The translations under genes and the position numbers were made by a program. DNA of 39,466 nucleotides from Faecalibacterium longum CLA-AA-H243 (GTDB taxonomy: Bacteria; Bacillota; Clostridia; Oscillospirales; Ruminococcaceae), in NCBI RefSeq assembly GCF_020687245.1, contig NZ_JAJEQG010000023.1, positions 1 through 39,466 on the forward strand, written 5' to 3'. The first letter of the stretch is position 1; every line of letters begins with the position of its first letter. Shown here one piece after another: positions 9,694 to 16,999 of the stretch. The notes under the pieces were generated by a model. It saw only the letters and a program-made list of their open reading frames with translations. It was not told where the DNA came from and did no database searches.

Positions 9694-9867
9694 TCAGGAG
9701 TAGTTCCGCCTTGTATTTCGAACGAGTACATTATCGGGGAGTTCTTCTGTATTTAAGGCTATCACAAATTCGTGGAAAATGTGTGTAATTTCAGGAAAAG
9801 ATTGGAGAAATCCTTTCACACTTTCTTCTTTTTTCAGCAATTTGGTTGACAGAATGCCAAAGTCGTG
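9694..9867 (-). pseudogene. Low-GC coding relic (57 codons, no start)
   Basis: The minus strand carries an open frame from 9867 to a TGA at 9694-9696 reading FGILSTKLLKKEESVKGF, then LQSFPEITHIFHEFVIALNT, then EELPDNVLVRNTRRNYS. The hydrophobic/charged pattern is protein-like and the DNA is markedly AT-richer than the flanking genes, so I take it as the C-terminal stub of a foreign gene. No ATG is present; TTG or GTG codons exist inside. The family is not recognised. The upstream jet promoter overlaps its 5' end. Confidence 0.45.
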
Positions 9868-9874
9868 CTATCAT
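9846..9874 (+). promoter_or_regulatory. Distal promoter P1 of the jet region
   Basis: Consensus TTGACA (9846-9851), a 17-base spacer and TATCAT (9869-9874). It reads toward jetA but a strong terminator lies about 110 bases downstream. Confidence 0.8.
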
Positions 9875-9880
9875 CGAATC

Positions 9881-9986
9881 AATCATTGTCAGGCTTTTGT
9901 GCGGCATTGCCGCCGGGTCTGGGAATAAGGGAGCGCCGCACGGGCCGGCAAAGGGGTTTTATACCGCTTTGCCGGCCCGTGTTTTT
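9881..9986 (+). ncRNA. Candidate small RNA or attenuator leader before jetA
   Basis: From the predicted P1 start near 9881 to the terminator T run is a noncoding stretch of about 105 bases. GTGCGGC (9899-9905) can pair with GCCGCAC (9935-9941), or locally as GCGGC-att-GCCGC. The first pairing shares CAC with the 5' arm of the terminator, so the two structures compete at the edge. I see no SRP, 6S, tmRNA or familiar riboswitch signature. It could be an independent RNA, or a leader whose read-through adds to jetA expression. Confidence 0.4.
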
Positions 9987-9990
9987 ATTT
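9939..9990 (+). terminator. Strong terminator inside the jet leader
   Basis: CACGGGCCGGCAAAG (9939-9953) pairs perfectly with CTTTGCCGGCCCGTG (9967-9981), followed by TTTTTATTT. Placing it between P1 and jetA is the unusual point. Confidence 0.9.
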
Positions 9991-10019
9991 CCCGGCGGGG
10001 TGCAAATCCCTGTCAACTG

Positions 10020-10028
10020 TGGTACAAT
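10020..10028 (+). promoter_or_regulatory. Proximal extended -10 promoter P2 of jetA
   Basis: TGG-TACAAT (10020-10028) is an extended -10. The -35 position (GTGCAA, 10000-10005) is poor. It lies after the leader terminator and would give a leader of about 30 bases to the jetA start. Confidence 0.6.
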
Positions 10029-10064
10029 AGAAGTCGATATTTACCGATTGAAAGGGGCATACGG

Positions 10065-11498
10065 ATGCAGTTGTTTGAACTGGTCAGCCCGCGGCTGTTC
10101 CGGCCGCTGGCGGGGCCGAACCGGGCATTTTATGCAGAGCTGCTGCTCTTGCTGTGGGAGGAGTGCCGCCACACGGCAGATTACAGCATCCTGCGGGCCG
10201 AGGCCGTATCCCGGGCCGAGGATTACTTCGCCGCGCTGGCAAAGCCTCTGGCACTGGACGCCGACGACGCGGGCGATGAGGCCGAGCAGCCCACCCGCGA
10301 CCCCCACACGCTGGCGCTGGGCTTTCTGCTGCGGCTGCGGCGCACCGGCTGGCTGGCCGAACAGCCCGGCAGCTACGAAGAAGAGCCTGCGCTGGCCTTT
10401 GTGCCGGAGGTGACGCCGCTTCTCGAAGCGCTGGAAGAGATCCTGAACCCCCGGGTCGTCACCTACACCGGCAAGCTCTACAAGGCGTGGCAGCTTTTGC
10501 AGAACGTGGGCGAAGAGAAGAGCCCCTACGAGAACGTCCTGCGGGAGGTAGCCGGCGACCTTGAGGCGCTGAACAAGTCCCTCCGCGCCCTCAACGCCTC
10601 CATCGGCCACTACATCGACCGCCTCACCCGCAACCGCACCCCGCAGGAAGTCTTGGAGCTTTTCGACCAGTACGAAGAAAAGGTGGTGGCGGCCGCCTAC
10701 CACCGCTTCAAGACCAGCGACAACCTGTTCAACTACCGCGCCTTCCTCGAAGAGGGACTGGACGACTGCGAGACGAACTACCTGCCCCAGCTGGCGCTGG
10801 ATTACGCCCGGGTGGAGCGCTGCGCCCCGAGCGAGGCCGCTCCCGCCGTCCGCGCCCTCATCCAGAAACAGCGGGACGCCCTCGAAGAGATGAGCACCCT
10901 CATCCGGGAGATCGACGCCAGCCACGTCCGCTACCGCAAGCGGGCCGTTCAGCGGGCGCAGTTCCTGCTGCTGAGCGACCGCTCGGCCCAGGGCAGCGTC
11001 ACCGCCCTGCTGCGGCGGTACGCTGAGAACATCAAAACGCCCGACCAACTCTTTGAGCCGGACGACGGCCCGCTGGCCGCGCGGCTCAAGCTCTGGCCGG
11101 TGCAGGTCTTCGGCGAAAAGCCGCTCTATCCTCCGGCCGCACCCCGCACCGACGCGCCGCTGGCCCCGGTGCAGGCCGGACAGCTGGACGAAGAGCAGCT
11201 CCGCCGGGAGCAGAAGCTCCTGCTGGACTACGCCCGGATGGCCGTCACCGAGGAGAACGTGGACATCCTCGCCCGGCAGGCGCTGTCCGCACGGCCTTCT
11301 GTCTCGGCGTCCACCCTCGCCGACGAATACCCGAACGACTTCGCACGCATCATCGGACTGCACACCTACTCCCAGTCGCCGCGCCGCTGTTATGACATCC
11401 AGCTCACCGGCGAGTGGGCCACGCGGGGCGGCTTCCGGTTTGAAGAATTTACTCTGACACCCCGCAAGGAGGACGCCGAAGATGACCGAAACGAATAA
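10065..11498 (+). CDS. jetA: JetA-like (MksF/kleisin-type) subunit of a Wadjet/Mks condensin operon
   Basis: A 477-residue protein. The start is the ATG at 10065 (MQLFELVSPRLFRPL) seven bases after AAAGGGG; the frame is open further upstream only because it crosses the leader. The N-terminal segment LFRPLAGPNRAFYAELLLLLWEEC and the GFLLRLRRTGWLAEQPGSYEEEPALAFVPEV part match the JetA (DUF5716-type) family. The middle (about 190-370) is helical and heptad-rich, as in kleisin-like MksF subunits that bridge the SMC heads. The end has the conserved DFARIIGLHTYSQSPRRCYDI. Its last 17 bases overlap jetB. In known Wadjet systems A, B and C form the DNA-loop-extruding part and D is the nuclease. Confidence 0.87.
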   Translation: MQLFELVSPRLFRPLAGPNRAFYAELLLLLWEECRHTADYSILRAEAVSRAEDYFAALAKPLALDADDAGDEAEQPTRDPHTLALGFLLRLRRTGWLAEQPGSYEEEPALAFVPEVTPLLEALEEILNPRVVTYTGKLYKAWQLLQNVGEEKSPYENVLREVAGDLEALNKSLRALNASIGHYIDRLTRNRTPQEVLELFDQYEEKVVAAAYHRFKTSDNLFNYRAFLEEGLDDCETNYLPQLALDYARVERCAPSEAAPAVRALIQKQRDALEEMSTLIREIDASHVRYRKRAVQRAQFLLLSDRSAQGSVTALLRRYAENIKTPDQLFEPDDGPLAARLKLWPVQVFGEKPLYPPAAPRTDAPLAPVQAGQLDEEQLRREQKLLLDYARMAVTEENVDILARQALSARPSVSASTLADEYPNDFARIIGLHTYSQSPRRCYDIQLTGEWATRGGFRFEEFTLTPRKEDAEDDRNE

Positions 11499-12090
11499 AA
11501 TGCTGGAAGAGTGCGCAAATTATCTGCTCAATCACTGCTTTGTGCTGGGCGGCGTGGAGGACCAGCGCGCCAAATATCTTTATGTTCAGGACCACCTCAA
11601 CGAAGTGCGGGCCGTGTTTGCGCCGCTGGGCTACTCGGTGGTGCTCTACCCCGCCCCGCTGCAGGCGGCGGCCCTCGTCAACGAGCATGAGGGCAGTCAG
11701 GCTCGGCTTCTGAAGTACGAGAGCATCCTGCTCTTAGTCCTGCGCCTGCTCTACCTCCAAAAGCGGGAGAGCCTCTCGGCCAGCGCCGACCAGGTTCTGG
11801 TGACGGTGGAAGAGGTACAGGCCGAACTCCAAAAGATGAACCTGCCCCGCCGCCTCGACCAGCCCACGCTGGAAAAGCTGCTGCGCACCCTGCGCCGGTA
11901 CAATCTGGCCCGGCCGGTGGGGCGGCTTTCCGGGCTGGACAGCCGCATCGAAGTATTCCCCACTGTATTGCTCGCTCTGCCGGATTCCGACCTTGCGGAC
12001 GCTGCCGCCGAGGTAACCCGCACCCGCAGTGAGCTTTCGCTTTATGAGCGGCCGGAGGACGGCACCGCTGCCGTGGAGGTGGAAGAATGA
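11482..12090 (+). CDS. jetB: JetB-like (MksE, DUF4194) condensin subunit
   Basis: A 202-residue protein with the DUF4194/MksE pattern: an N-terminal winged-helix segment (LLNHCFVLGGVEDQRAKYLYVQDHLNEVRAVFAPLGYSVV), the RLLKYESILLLVLRLLYLQKRE helix, and a second winged helix (TVEEVQAELQKMNLPRRLDQPTLEKLLRTLRRYNLARPVG). MksE-type subunits bind the kleisin and DNA. The start ATG at 11482 follows AAGGAGG and lies inside the end of jetA; its stop overlaps the jetC ATG as ATGA. The overlaps mean obligate co-expression of the three subunits. Confidence 0.9.
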   Translation: MTETNKMLEECANYLLNHCFVLGGVEDQRAKYLYVQDHLNEVRAVFAPLGYSVVLYPAPLQAAALVNEHEGSQARLLKYESILLLVLRLLYLQKRESLSASADQVLVTVEEVQAELQKMNLPRRLDQPTLEKLLRTLRRYNLARPVGRLSGLDSRIEVFPTVLLALPDSDLADAAAEVTRTRSELSLYERPEDGTAAVEVEE

Positions 12091-15000
12091 TAGAACTGAA
12101 ACGCCTGAAGCTCATCAACTGGCACAACTTTGAGAACGTCACCTTCGACTGCGCCCGGCTGACCTACATGATCGGCGTCAACGCCGTGGGCAAGACCACC
12201 ATCCTCGACGCCATCCGCTACTGCCTGACCACCAACCGCAACTTCAACGCTCTCGGCAACAAAAAGAGCGGCCGCACCCTGCAAGGCTCTGTCCACGCCA
12301 AGCAGCGCGGCGAGAACGCCTACCGCCGCCCGGGCCGCACCGTGGCCTACATCGGCGCGGAGTTCTGGGACAGCGTCAAGCGCACCCACTTCGTCATCGC
12401 CGTCCGGGTCGAGTCGGAAGGCCCCATGCAGGAGCTCCATCCCGGCGACCAGACCTGGTATATCTCCGAGGACGGCTGCACCCTCGAGCAGCTGCCCTTC
12501 ATCGACCCCCGCACCGGCGCGCCCAGCTCGAAGGAGAACTTCAAGCCCGCTGTGGGCCGTCTCTCCTACACCCGCAGCCCCGGCGAAGCCCGCGACCGCA
12601 TCTGCCGGGCGCTGGGCATCGGCCGCGCCGCAAGCCCGCTGGGCAAGAAGTTCAACGAAGTCTTCCAGATGGGTACCAGTATGGACGAGATCCCCAACTT
12701 CCGGGAGTTTTTATATCAGTACATCCTGCCTCAGCCCGAGCTTGATTTGGAAGCTTTGCAGGGCGACCGGGTGGAGTTGGAAAACCTCCACGCCGTGCTG
12801 GCCGAAGCCCAGACCCGCGCCGCCGCGCTGGAACAAATCGTGGACTATGGCCGCGAAGCTGCCCAGAAGGAAACGGAAGCCCTCGTCAACCGAGGCACTG
12901 CCCTGCTGGCCCGTGCTGAGGAAGCCGCCGCCGGGACGAACACCTGGCAGGAGCATCTTGCCGCCGGAAAGCGCCAGCACGAAGAGCTGACAGCCCGCTA
13001 CGCCGCCGCAAAAGACGCCGAAGCCGAGGCCCGCCGGGCCTACCTCTCGGCCCACAGTGCCGCCGCCAGCGGCGAGGGCCGGGCGCTGGACGCCCTGAGT
13101 GAAGAGCTGGCCCGCAAAAAGACCGCACTGGACAAGGCCGGCCGGGACACTTCCAGAAGCGAAGCCGCCGCAGGCAAAGTGCAGAGCCTCTTGCAGAGCT
13201 TGCAGCGCAGCGGCTTTGCCGTCGAAAAATCGCTCTGGCCTGCCTCACTGACGGCGGAGACTCTGCCTCAGCTCCAAAGCGCCCTCGCCGGGCTGGAAAA
13301 GCCGCTGGAAGAGCAGTATTTCGCCGCACGGCAGAGCGCCGACGCCCTCACCGCCGAAGTACAGGAAAAGCAGGCGGAGCTGGCCTCCGTCTCGGGAGGC
13401 CGGTGGGTCTACCCCCACGGCGACGCCGCCACCAGAGTGCGGGACGCCGTGAACGCTGAGCTCAAGAGCCGCGGCATGACGCCGGACGCCAAAATCTTCT
13501 GCGAACTGCTGAGCGTCGAGGACGAGAGCTGGCAGGACTGCGTGGAAGCCTGCCTCGGCGACCGCCGGTTCGACATCCTCGTGCCGCCTGCCCACTACGC
13601 CGCCGCCAAGAGCGCCTTTGTGGCCCTGCGGGACAAGGTCGGCCCCATCAGCCTGCTGGACACCCCCAGCATCCGCACGGCCAACCGCAAGGCCGACGCC
13701 GCCCCTGCCGACAGCCTCGCCGCGCAGGTCCGAAGCGAGAACCCGCTGGCCGCACAGTACGCCGACACCATCCTGCGGCGCATCGTCTGCTGTGACACCC
13801 CCGACACACTGGAAAACTATCCCGACAGCGCTACCCGCGACCTGCTGCGCCACCACCCCTTCCGCCTCGAGCGTCTCCGCACACCCCAGCGGTATATCGG
13901 CCTTGACGCCCGCCGCGCCCGGGCCGAAGCGCTGACGAAAGCTCTGGATGAGCTGACCGCCCGCAGCAAGGAAGCGGCGCAGTCTGCCGCCGCCCTCAAA
14001 GCCGCACGGGACAGCTATCAGGATGTGCTGCACAGCAGCGTCATGGATGAGCTGGCCGCGCTGTGGGACGCCCGCGCCGCGCTGGAAGCGGCCCGCGCCG
14101 ACTGCACCGCACAGGAGCAGAAGCTGGCCGAGTGCCGCGAGAACCCGATGCTGCAGCAGCTTTACAAAGAGGACGAGGCCCGCGAGGCCGCGTGGGACGC
14201 CGCCCGCGCCGCTGTGGAGACAGCCGGCGGCGACATCCGTGTCTGCGAAAAGCAGCTGGCCTCCTGCGAGGCTGAGCAGACCAAGGCAGAAGAGACCGCC
14301 AGGCAGGCAAAGGATGCCGCCGACCGGTTCTTCGGGCAGTACCCGCTTTTGGAGCCGCTGGCACGGGAGCGCTTTGCGGCCCTGAGCAAGGACAAAGGCC
14401 CGCGCTATGCGGCCCAGTCCGCCGAAAAGGCACAGGCCCGGCTGGACGACGCACTGGCCGTCTACCTCACCGGCACCCTCGAGCCTGCCCAGAAAGAGTA
14501 CAACACCCGCTATGTCTGCGATCATCCGCTGGGCCTTACAGGCATCGAGCAGTACCGCGCCCAGCACGAGAGCCTCGTGCGCATTGATTTGGAGCGGTAC
14601 GCCGCCCGCCTCGAGCAGGCACAGCGCGACTGCAAGGACCGCTTCCGCAAGGACATCCTCTTCCGGATGAAGGATGACATCTTCAACGCACGGCGGCAGT
14701 TCCGGGAGCTGAACAAGGTGATGGAACAGCTGACCTACGGCGAAGAGGTCTACCGCTTTGAGCTTGGCCCCAGCCGCGACCCCCAGCTGGCCGCATTCTA
14801 TCAGGTCATCGTGGACAAGGGAAACCAGCAGATGACCGACGGCGACTCGCTGGACAACCTCGCCGCCACCGCCGACCCCGTCTATGAGCGTCAGGTGGAC
14901 GAGCTGATGGAAAAGATCATGGCCGATGTGGACGAGAACACCCGCGCCCGGCAGGAGGGCCGCCGCCCCGAGAATGTCACCCTTTCGGATTATGTAGACT

Positions 15001-15401
15001 ACCGCACCTATCTCGACTACGACATCAAAGTGACCAACACCGTCTCCGGCCAGCAGGCTTCCCTTTCCCGCGTCAGCCGCGATTCCTCCGGCGGCGAGAA
15101 TCAGGCCCCCTTCTATGTAGCTATCTGCGCGTCGCTGCTCCAGATTTACCAGAAGAGCGAGAACAGCATCCGTCTGGTGCTGCTGGACGAAGCGTTCAGC
15201 AAGATGACCAGCGACCGCATCCGTCCCATGATGGAGCTGTTCCGCCGGATGCAGCTGCAGGTCCTGCTCATCTCCACCGTCGAGAAGAGCACCGCCATCC
15301 AGCCCTACTGTGACATCACCTATTCCATCGTGCGCCACGGCGACGTGAACGCCATCGCGCCCTTTTACCGTCTGAATGCATCGGAGGAAATTGGATCTTG
15401 A
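12087..15401 (+). CDS. jetC: JetC-like SMC ATPase (MukB/MksB class)
   Basis: A 1104-residue SMC-like ATPase. The Walker A is GVNAVGKT at residues 30-37, followed by DAIRYCL. Two long Ala/Glu/Arg-rich coiled coils (about 220-450 and 600-800) surround a hinge-like globular segment (about 455-590, containing FCELLSVEDESWQDCVEACL). The C-terminal head has the ABC signature SSGGENQAPF near 998 and the Walker B LVLLDEAFSKM near 1030, followed by an H-like ISTVEK. It should form an ATP-driven DNA-loop-extruding dimer with JetA and JetB. All ATPase motifs are intact, so the machine looks functional. It is coupled to jetB by ATGA and to the next small gene by TTGA. Confidence 0.92.
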   Translation: MIELKRLKLINWHNFENVTFDCARLTYMIGVNAVGKTTILDAIRYCLTTNRNFNALGNKKSGRTLQGSVHAKQRGENAYRRPGRTVAYIGAEFWDSVKRTHFVIAVRVESEGPMQELHPGDQTWYISEDGCTLEQLPFIDPRTGAPSSKENFKPAVGRLSYTRSPGEARDRICRALGIGRAASPLGKKFNEVFQMGTSMDEIPNFREFLYQYILPQPELDLEALQGDRVELENLHAVLAEAQTRAAALEQIVDYGREAAQKETEALVNRGTALLARAEEAAAGTNTWQEHLAAGKRQHEELTARYAAAKDAEAEARRAYLSAHSAAASGEGRALDALSEELARKKTALDKAGRDTSRSEAAAGKVQSLLQSLQRSGFAVEKSLWPASLTAETLPQLQSALAGLEKPLEEQYFAARQSADALTAEVQEKQAELASVSGGRWVYPHGDAATRVRDAVNAELKSRGMTPDAKIFCELLSVEDESWQDCVEACLGDRRFDILVPPAHYAAAKSAFVALRDKVGPISLLDTPSIRTANRKADAAPADSLAAQVRSENPLAAQYADTILRRIVCCDTPDTLENYPDSATRDLLRHHPFRLERLRTPQRYIGLDARRARAEALTKALDELTARSKEAAQSAAALKAARDSYQDVLHSSVMDELAALWDARAALEAARADCTAQEQKLAECRENPMLQQLYKEDEAREAAWDAARAAVETAGGDIRVCEKQLASCEAEQTKAEETARQAKDAADRFFGQYPLLEPLARERFAALSKDKGPRYAAQSAEKAQARLDDALAVYLTGTLEPAQKEYNTRYVCDHPLGLTGIEQYRAQHESLVRIDLERYAARLEQAQRDCKDRFRKDILFRMKDDIFNARRQFRELNKVMEQLTYGEEVYRFELGPSRDPQLAAFYQVIVDKGNQQMTDGDSLDNLAATADPVYERQVDELMEKIMADVDENTRARQEGRRPENVTLSDYVDYRTYLDYDIKVTNTVSGQQASLSRVSRDSSGGENQAPFYVAICASLLQIYQKSENSIRLVLLDEAFSKMTSDRIRPMMELFRRMQLQVLLISTVEKSTAIQPYCDITYSIVRHGDVNAIAPFYRLNASEEIGS

Positions 15402-15631
15402 ACGAACATCTTGTAAAATTCTGGCTCTTTGCCACCCACTGGATCGAGCTGGACACCTTTGACACCGAAGAAGAGCTGAACGACGAGATCGAACTGCTCC
15501 ACCGCCAGAACCTGCCCACCAAGGTGCGTCAGCGCACCAAAAAGGACGGCGGCGAGGAGCTGGTGCTCTACGTCAAGCAGGCAGACCGGGATTATGCCCG
15601 CTACTGCACCGGCTGGCGGCCCGGGATGTAA
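15398..15631 (+). CDS. Small fourth gene of the jet operon, unknown function
   Basis: A 77-residue acidic/basic soluble protein starting at TTG (15398) that overlaps the jetC stop as TTGA, with GGAGG at 15383-15387. It has no signal or membrane segment. Order: FWLFATHWIELDTF (strand), TEEELNDEIELLHRQ (helix), NLPTKVRQRTKK (strand with basic turn), EELVLYVKQADRDYARYC (strand then helix). This alpha/beta arrangement resembles small DUF2007-type proteins, but that is only a visual guess. It occupies the slot where jetD would stand, yet it is far too small and lacks any Toprim-like motif. Tight overlap argues it works with, or modulates, the JetABC complex. Confidence 0.75.
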   Translation: MNEHLVKFWLFATHWIELDTFDTEEELNDEIELLHRQNLPTKVRQRTKKDGGEELVLYVKQADRDYARYCTGWRPGM

Positions 15632-15643
15632 CAAGGAGTACCC

Positions 15644-16999
15644 ATGTCAAAGCAGAAAATACAGTTATCTGACCACTTTGATTACAGCCGCCTTTTGCGG
15701 TTCGTGCTGCCCTGCGTCGGCACCATGCTGTTCACCTCCATCTACGGCATCGTGGACGGCCTGTGCGTCTCGAACTTTGTGGGCAAAACGGCTTTTGCCG
15801 CCGTCAACCTCATCATGCCTGTGCCGATGCTGGTCGGCTCGGTGGGCTTCATGCTTGGCACCGGCGGCAGCGCCATCGTGGGCATCACGCTGGGCGAGGG
15901 CGACCGGGAAAAGGCCGACCGCTATTTCAGCCTTTTTGTCTGGACGGGCCTCCTCGCGGGCATCGTTCTCTCCGCCGTCGGCGTTCTCATCGTCCGCCCG
16001 GCGGCGGCGCTGCTGGGCGCAGAGGGCGAGATGCTGGATTATGCCGTCCGGTATGGCCGCCTCCTGATGCTGTCCCTGCCCTTCTTCATTTTGCAGAATA
16101 TGTTCCAGAGCTTCTTCGTCACCGCCGAAAAGCCGCATCTGGGCTTCGCCTTCACGGTGGCGGCAGGCGTTACCAACATGGTATTGGACGTCGTGCTGGT
16201 GGGTATGCTTCACGGCGGCGTGGAGGGCGCGGCCATCGCCACTTTCATCAGTCAGGCCGTGGGCGGCGTGCTGCCAGTGTTCTACTTCCTTAATAAGTGC
16301 TCCACCAGCTCTATCCATCTGGGCCGCGCCCAGTGGAACGGCGGCGTCATCCGCAGCGCCTGCATCAACGGCTCCTCGGAGCTGATGACCAATCTTTCCA
16401 TGTCGCTGGTCAACATTCTTTACAATTACCAGCTCCTCCGCTTTGCCGGTGAAAACGGTGTCGCGGCTTATGGCGTCATCATGTATGCGGCGTTCCTGTT
16501 TGTGGCCGTCTTCGTGGGCTATGCCGTCGGCAGCGCCCCCATCGTCAGCTACCACTACGGCGCACGCAACCACGCCGAGCTGAACAACCTTTACTCCAAG
16601 AGTCTCCGCCTCATCGGCGTCATCGCCGTCGTTATGACCGCCCTCTCCATGCTGGTCATCCCCTATGTGGCCCGCATCTTTGTGGGCTACGACGCCGAGC
16701 TGCTGGCACTGACCAGCCACGCCTTCCGCGTCTACGCCCTGAACTTCTTCCTCATGGGCTTCAATGTCTACGGCTCCTCCTTCTTCACTGCTCTGGGCGA
16801 CGGCGTGACCAGTGCGCTCATCTCCTTCCTGCGCACTTTGCTGTTCCAGCTGCTGGCCCTCATCTTCCTGCCCATGGTTCTGGGCATCGAGGGCGTCTGG
16901 CTGGCCGTCACGGCAGCCGAAGCCGGTGCGCTCTGCGTCACGGTACTGATGTTCATCACCAAGGACAAAGTTTTCCACTATCGCAAAGCATCCTGTTGA
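15644..16999 (+). CDS. MATE-family transporter (MepA-like) at the end of the jet operon
   Basis: A 451-residue 12-TM protein. The N-terminal half has VLPCVGTMLFTSIYGIVDGLCVSNFVGKTAFAAVN and GTGGSAIVGITLGEGDREKADRYFS, the MepA-like MATE signatures; the second half has INGSSELMTNLSMSLVNILYNYQL and GSAPIVSYHYGARNHAELNNL. Start ATG 15644 after AAGGAG, only 12 bases behind the preceding small gene, with no terminator in between, so it is probably on the jet transcript. Whether it is functionally tied to the condensin genes or merely a passenger is open. Confidence 0.92.
   Translation: MSKQKIQLSDHFDYSRLLRFVLPCVGTMLFTSIYGIVDGLCVSNFVGKTAFAAVNLIMPVPMLVGSVGFMLGTGGSAIVGITLGEGDREKADRYFSLFVWTGLLAGIVLSAVGVLIVRPAAALLGAEGEMLDYAVRYGRLLMLSLPFFILQNMFQSFFVTAEKPHLGFAFTVAAGVTNMVLDVVLVGMLHGGVEGAAIATFISQAVGGVLPVFYFLNKCSTSSIHLGRAQWNGGVIRSACINGSSELMTNLSMSLVNILYNYQLLRFAGENGVAAYGVIMYAAFLFVAVFVGYAVGSAPIVSYHYGARNHAELNNLYSKSLRLIGVIAVVMTALSMLVIPYVARIFVGYDAELLALTSHAFRVYALNFFLMGFNVYGSSFFTALGDGVTSALISFLRTLLFQLLALIFLPMVLGIEGVWLAVTAAEAGALCVTVLMFITKDKVFHYRKASC

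Follow-up and report, generated by a model that had tools for sequence, protein, structure and literature searches.

Comparison of the Faecalibacterium locus with described systems

The closest described systems are the type I Wadjets (JetABCD, also MksBEFG) and the condensins MksBEF and MukBEF. In Bacillus subtilis, all four Jet subunits are required for plasmid suppression, with JetABC serving as the sensor, and Pseudomonas aeruginosa MksBEF, which likely arose by JetD loss, contributes to chromosome organisation and segregation, as described in PMC10586767. We analyzed contig NZ_JAJEQG010000023.1 of Faecalibacterium longum CLA-AA-H243 (39,466 nucleotides; hereafter, the window), which carries an operon, jetABC, with the core of a type I Wadjet but without the nuclease gene jetD. 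With a probability of roughly 0.6, judging from sequence comparisons, JetABC is a non-cutting DNA loop extruder that was retained after JetD was lost in the lineage and that would play an MksBEF-like accessory role. No report of a JetABC without JetD (D-less) in Faecalibacterium was found in the literature searched.

A preliminary description of the window had named three overlapping genes with intact structural maintenance of chromosomes (SMC) ATPase motifs, and this was borne out by the open reading frames (ORFs) at 10065–15401. The overlaps are 17 bases between jetA and jetB, 4 bases between jetB and jetC, and 4 bases between jetC and a 77-codon ORF (p77). The GVNAVGKT, DSSGGENQ, and LLDEAF motifs of JetC were invariant in an eight-row alignment including a JetD-bearing relative, and Walker A, the signature, Walker B, and the hinge (Pfam SMC_hinge, residues 473–574) were all intact. 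The JetA-like and DUF4194 subunits of the same description were recognised by both Pfam and PADLOC; the best PADLOC models for JetA, JetB, and JetC were all of type I, with near full-length matches. JetA (DUF5716), JetB (DUF4194), and the SMC-like JetC thus stand in the order of the type I core, and the protein families, gene order, overlaps, and ATPase motifs are those of type I Wadjets. The defining JetD, on the other hand, is missing next to jetABC, and searches of the own genome gave no match to it. Similar to P. aeruginosa MksBEF, the locus encodes an SMC protein, a kleisin, and a KITE protein together without a nuclease and coexists with another condensin; it differs in that JetB scored just under the cut-off of MksE (PF21980; 26.5 bits against 27) and higher with DUF4194.

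The AlphaFold2 model of JetA had a mean predicted local distance difference test score (pLDDT) of 76.5 and a predicted template modelling score (pTM) of 0.39. The 11 PDB entries that matched it best, among them all five at E ≤ 0.001, were MukBEF or MukEF and JetABC(D) structures, with low TM-scores of 0.19–0.27 by query length; judging from their lengths, we infer that the matched chains are kleisins. Unlike MukBEF, JetABC is not the sole condensin, ScpA being present in 31 of the 31 Faecalibacterium genomes. Sequence searches of the PDB yielded no hit for JetC or JetA and three unrelated hits for the JetC alignment.

Absence of JetD beside the operon and in the genome

The fourth place of the operon is occupied by p77, followed by a MATE transporter gene, as had been described, and no JetD (DUF3322/DUF2220, JetD_C) is encoded in the operon or elsewhere in the window. 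In the own genome, a 2.96 Mb draft of 89 contigs with 99.98% completeness, JetD_C (PF09983) gave no match at E ≤ 0.001 and DUF3322 (PF11795) none at E ≤ 1. Among 14 control genomes, the JetD_C search was positive in one and the DUF3322 search in four, one of them over the cut-off. The JetD_C search detected JetD in eight of the 31 genus genomes, G081 among them, and its sensitivity is thus sufficient for close relatives.

The window operon has orthologues in 15 genus genomes, its own included. The JetD profile matched none of the stretches around these 15 loci (8.3–20 kb each, plus the window), although in G218, whose genome is 79% complete, the sequence covers 309 bases beyond jetC, filled by the 77-codon gene. 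With 12 JetD proteins as tblastn queries and with an all-frame profile search, no jetD remnant was found at the 15 loci; two tblastn hits were at chance level (E of 0.51 and 0.62). In the tblastn control, seven of seven JetD-bearing loci were matched, and the undecided locus L186 was not. Genome-wide, JetD_C was absent from 11 of the 15 orthologue-bearing genomes, including five of the eight single-contig ones. The suggestion that the nuclease is encoded elsewhere was not supported for the JetD family in the own genome or in these 11. A jetD beside the operon in sister genomes, which had been named as a refuting observation, was seen in part: the 46% identical relative in G081 does, at another locus, and none of the 15 closer orthologues does.

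Distribution and conservation in Faecalibacterium

JetC matches were found in 19 of the 31 genus genomes. The 15 orthologues of the window share 67–100% identity; G081 has the 46% relative, and G201, G202, and G203 have divergent copies only. Nine named loci with close relatives all belong to Faecalibacterium, four of them to F. prausnitzii. The gene upstream of the operon encodes a DHH/DHHA2 protein (Pfam), which we take to be PpaC. In a tree of this protein (30 of the 31 genomes; G213, which has no such locus, was left out), one clade with support of 99/98 has the operon in 14 of its 14 members. The fifteenth carrier, G218, falls on another branch with two genomes that do not have the operon, and the JetD-bearing Wadjets of the genus (8/31) are scattered over the tree. 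The D-less locus is thus present clade-wide and is no local accident.

The reading frames of jetB and jetC are open in all 15 genomes and that of jetA in 14. The median pairwise ratios of nonsynonymous to synonymous substitution rates (dN/dS) were 0.144, 0.096, and 0.174 for JetA (14 genomes; G222 left out for a frameshift), JetB (15), and JetC (15), respectively, and 0.115 for the DHH gene (13). Purifying selection acts on the jet genes as it does on the DHH gene next to them.

Probable history of JetD loss in the class

In a class sample of 393 genomes, JetA scored over the cut-off in 33, of which 24 have JetD_C somewhere. Among the nine others, G428, G648, and G690 are contig ends, G729 is a fragment with a stop, and G498 has an interrupted jetC; the own genome, G441, G627, and G670 have a complete jetABC and no JetD. 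Among the fetched loci with a complete jetC and readable downstream sequence, 22 have jetD and five do not (the window, G441, one G470 copy, G627, and G670); G492 and G555, with JetD on another contig, were left undecided. In all 22 decidable JetD-bearing loci, jetD adjoins jetC.

Quick JetC trees with long branches, which included no MksB sequence, placed the D-less rows in three places among JetD-bearing rows. A single clade of D-less rows (8 of 27 rows) was rejected by the approximately unbiased test (p-AU of 1.7e-5). Nine of the 15 orthologues were used in the first tree and in the column tests described below, and four in the tree of the clade test. The window group adjoins G081 and G540, both JetD-bearing; in G081, jetD overlaps jetC by 4 bases. 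Repeated loss of JetD appears to be the simplest history, and loss is preferred over gain because in the nearest branches a JetD of a single family directly follows jetC. That JetD was lost repeatedly in the class and that the Faecalibacterium motor was domesticated, organising the chromosome or silencing small circles uncut, is a tentative proposal to which we give somewhat less than an even chance.

Three other class loci showed particular arrangements. G470 has a D-less jetABC alongside a jetABCD in one genome (L162 and L169). In G670 (L160, 29–8658), an ORF assigned to the MYG1 exonuclease family (PF03690) comes directly after the D-less jetABC and is a possible replacement nuclease in this single case; upstream there is an ORF carrying EcoEI_R_C and helicase domains. 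In G498 (L157), jetC is interrupted by transposon-like genes, including an AAA_22 ATPase ORF, presumably TniB-like.

Proposed function and alternative explanations

The earlier view of the locus as a nuclease-less Wadjet or Mks-like complex is supported by its clade-wide presence, purifying selection, and the absence of JetD. A lineage of the type I Wadjet core would have lost JetD, and JetA, JetB, and JetC would still assemble into a dimer that uses ATP to extrude DNA loops, in the manner of JetABC and MukBEF. Without JetD, an extruded circle would not be cleaved, and the complex may serve as a condensin that folds chromosomal DNA or helps segregate it beside the housekeeping Smc–ScpA. Because ScpA occurs throughout the genus, JetABC would be accessory to Smc–ScpA.

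Several points weigh against this reading. The data fit an action on the chromosome and a non-cutting action on plasmids alike. Sixteen of the 31 genus genomes do not have the operon, which is therefore dispensable there. Single dN/dS pairs went up to 0.35–0.41 in the jet genes, against 0.15 in the DHH gene. The count of changes alone does not tell loss from gain, and the downstream view in the incomplete G218 genome ends after 309 bases. Column tests of the positions that JetD-bearing rows conserve (the JetA test excluding the split protein of L053) showed no clear shared change that would point to the loss of a JetD-facing surface, retention in the window being about that of two JetD-bearing sisters. 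The window kept 16 of 21, 6 of 11, and 59 of 69 such positions in JetA, JetB, and JetC, respectively; the corresponding values for the sisters were 71 and 86%, 58%, and 82%, and those for the median JetD-bearing row were 95%, 91%, and 95%. A second D-less lineage kept fewer (10/21, 4/11, and 52/69, respectively) and G670 more (17/21, 11/11, and 65/69, respectively). The N-terminal IFDR motif of JetB named in PMC10586767 is missing in the window, but equally in the JetD-bearing sisters, and is not informative.

These column tests bear on the alternative that JetABC detects small DNA circles by extruding them in full and then compacts or silences them uncut, as proposed for Smc5/6, which possibly compacts circular viral DNA via entrapment and loop extrusion (PMC10586767). 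The type I core is kept, and the positions conserved in JetD-bearing rows are retained about as in JetD-bearing sisters, as this alternative would have it; however, presence in every member of a clade fits a core function better than a patchily distributed defence gene, and the need for all four subunits in B. subtilis (PMC10586767) speaks against plasmid suppression by three. We consider such a non-cutting defence unlikely. Some Bacillota strains with small plasmids are without at least one jet orthologue, according to PMC12287153, a study that centres on jetD carriers.

An unlinked, unrelated nuclease or effector working with JetABC is quite unlikely. No partner gene adjoining jetABC is common to all 15 loci, so any partner would be encoded elsewhere, and the nuclease search of the own genome covered the JetD families only. 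However, the position of jetD directly behind jetC in every decidable JetD-bearing locus of the class argues against a distant partner, and no candidate was found, none having been systematically sought.

The p77 protein had been suggested to take over the role of JetD, as a replacement or regulator, and its 4-base overlap with jetC in the window and its conserved C-terminus would be in line with this. The C-terminal sequence ADRDYARYCTGWRP was invariant in seven aligned rows, with one residue differing in G202. The distribution, however, largely refutes this role, and p77 was rejected as a JetD replacement: the gene occurs in 18 of the 31 genus genomes; eight of the 15 with jetABC lack it, whereas 11 of the 16 operon-less ones have it. 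Conservation of the order jetABC–p77 among relatives had been proposed as a check; seven of the 15 operon carriers have p77. Ten of the 11 operon-less copies lie on the contig of the DHH gene, at most 7 kb from it, and in the three such contexts that were read, p77 follows the acylphosphatase side with no jetABC. Its distribution and position therefore indicate that p77 belongs to the chromosomal site and not to the jet machine. Searches with the p77 protein matched nothing in Pfam and PADLOC (E ≤ 0.1) or in NCBIfam and PHROGs (E ≤ 0.01). AlphaFold2 predicts a small alpha/beta fold for it (pLDDT of 83.9), which matched no PDB entry at E ≤ 0.001; the weak best matches (E of 0.016 and worse) were EscJ and ACT-type domains, not nucleases. 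A stand-in role for p77 is thus very improbable.

We give equally little credence to the operon being a decaying remnant, for which the frameshifted jetA of G222 might speak, since the frames are otherwise open, the median dN/dS values are about 0.1–0.17, and the MATE gene of G222 is frameshifted too, which makes a sequencing error possible. That JetABC borrows the JetD of a second Wadjet is hardly conceivable: four of the 15 genomes (G198, G199, G209, and G223) do carry a second Wadjet with its own adjoining JetD, but the JetC of that system is only about 25% identical, and the 11 genomes with no JetD_C match contradict the idea for most of the group.

Features around the operon

The coordinates of the operon and its neighbours are given in Table 1.

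Table 1. Features of the jetABC locus in the window
Feature	Position	Strand	Remarks
jetA (kleisin, DUF5716; 477 aa)	10065..11498	+	ATG start; PF18982 E 7e-78, PADLOC JetA1 797 bits
jetB (KITE, DUF4194; 202 aa)	11482..12090	+	PF13835 E 4e-18, PADLOC JetB1 224 bits
jetC (SMC-like ATPase; 1104 aa)	12087..15401	+	SbcC_Walker_B E 2e-22, PADLOC JetC1 1924 bits
p77 (77-codon ORF, TTG start)	15398..15631	+	predicted small alpha/beta protein
MATE transporter gene	15644..16999		3′ of p77
jetA extended −10 promoter element TGTGGTACAATA	10018..10029	+	identical 12-mer in 15/15 orthologues

The 12-mer TGTGGTACAATA begins 45–60 bases 5′ of the jetA start in all 15 orthologues (47 in the window) and is unchanged although the upstream DNA varies widely; GAAAGGGG stands before the jetA start. 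Just 5′ of this promoter, positions 9846–9990 may encode a small RNA: TTGACA-N17-TATCAT resembles a promoter, and the roughly 110 bases after it close with a strong hairpin of terminator type. Conservation of such an RNA was rejected, as no counterpart of 9846–9990 aligned within 300 bases 5′ of jetA in the 14 relatives compared.

In 13 of the 15 genomes, the stretch read includes the DHH gene, on the side of jetA; the gene is about 11 kb off in G224 and on another contig in G218. The MATE gene is on the jetC side in 14 of the 15, inverted in some. It is frameshifted in G222, as is jetA, and has one stop in G198, which may reflect sequencing error or decay; both genomes were left out of its dN/dS analysis. 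In six single-contig genomes starting at dnaA (placed by Pfam Bac_DnaA), the near end of jetC is 32–47 kb from dnaA, assuming a circular chromosome.

In IMG/VR, 46 stretches fit a pattern and none was a relative; the plasmid DNA search had no match, and the plasmid protein search returned 14 records, all below 60% identity. The phage protein search returned two records, one 84% identical and one distant. MT835591.1 (L196), an unverified Bacteriophage record, is part of a Faecalibacterium chromosome: it shares about 99% identity with L033 and has the same order, except that about 4 kb are inserted between the 77-codon gene and the MATE gene. The phage origin suggested by this record was therefore rejected.

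Implications

The conversion of a Wadjet motor into a chromosome condensin by dropping the nuclease has already been proposed for MksBEF (PMC10586767). The present set provides relatives on both sides of this step, namely the D-less core, its JetD-bearing sisters, and two further D-less lineages of the class, and the proposal is therefore directly testable. Among the genomes of the clade with the D-less core are some labelled F. prausnitzii, which is common as a commensal of the human gut. 'Wadjet' calls made from JetA, JetB, and JetC hits alone would list such cutter-less systems as plasmid defence.

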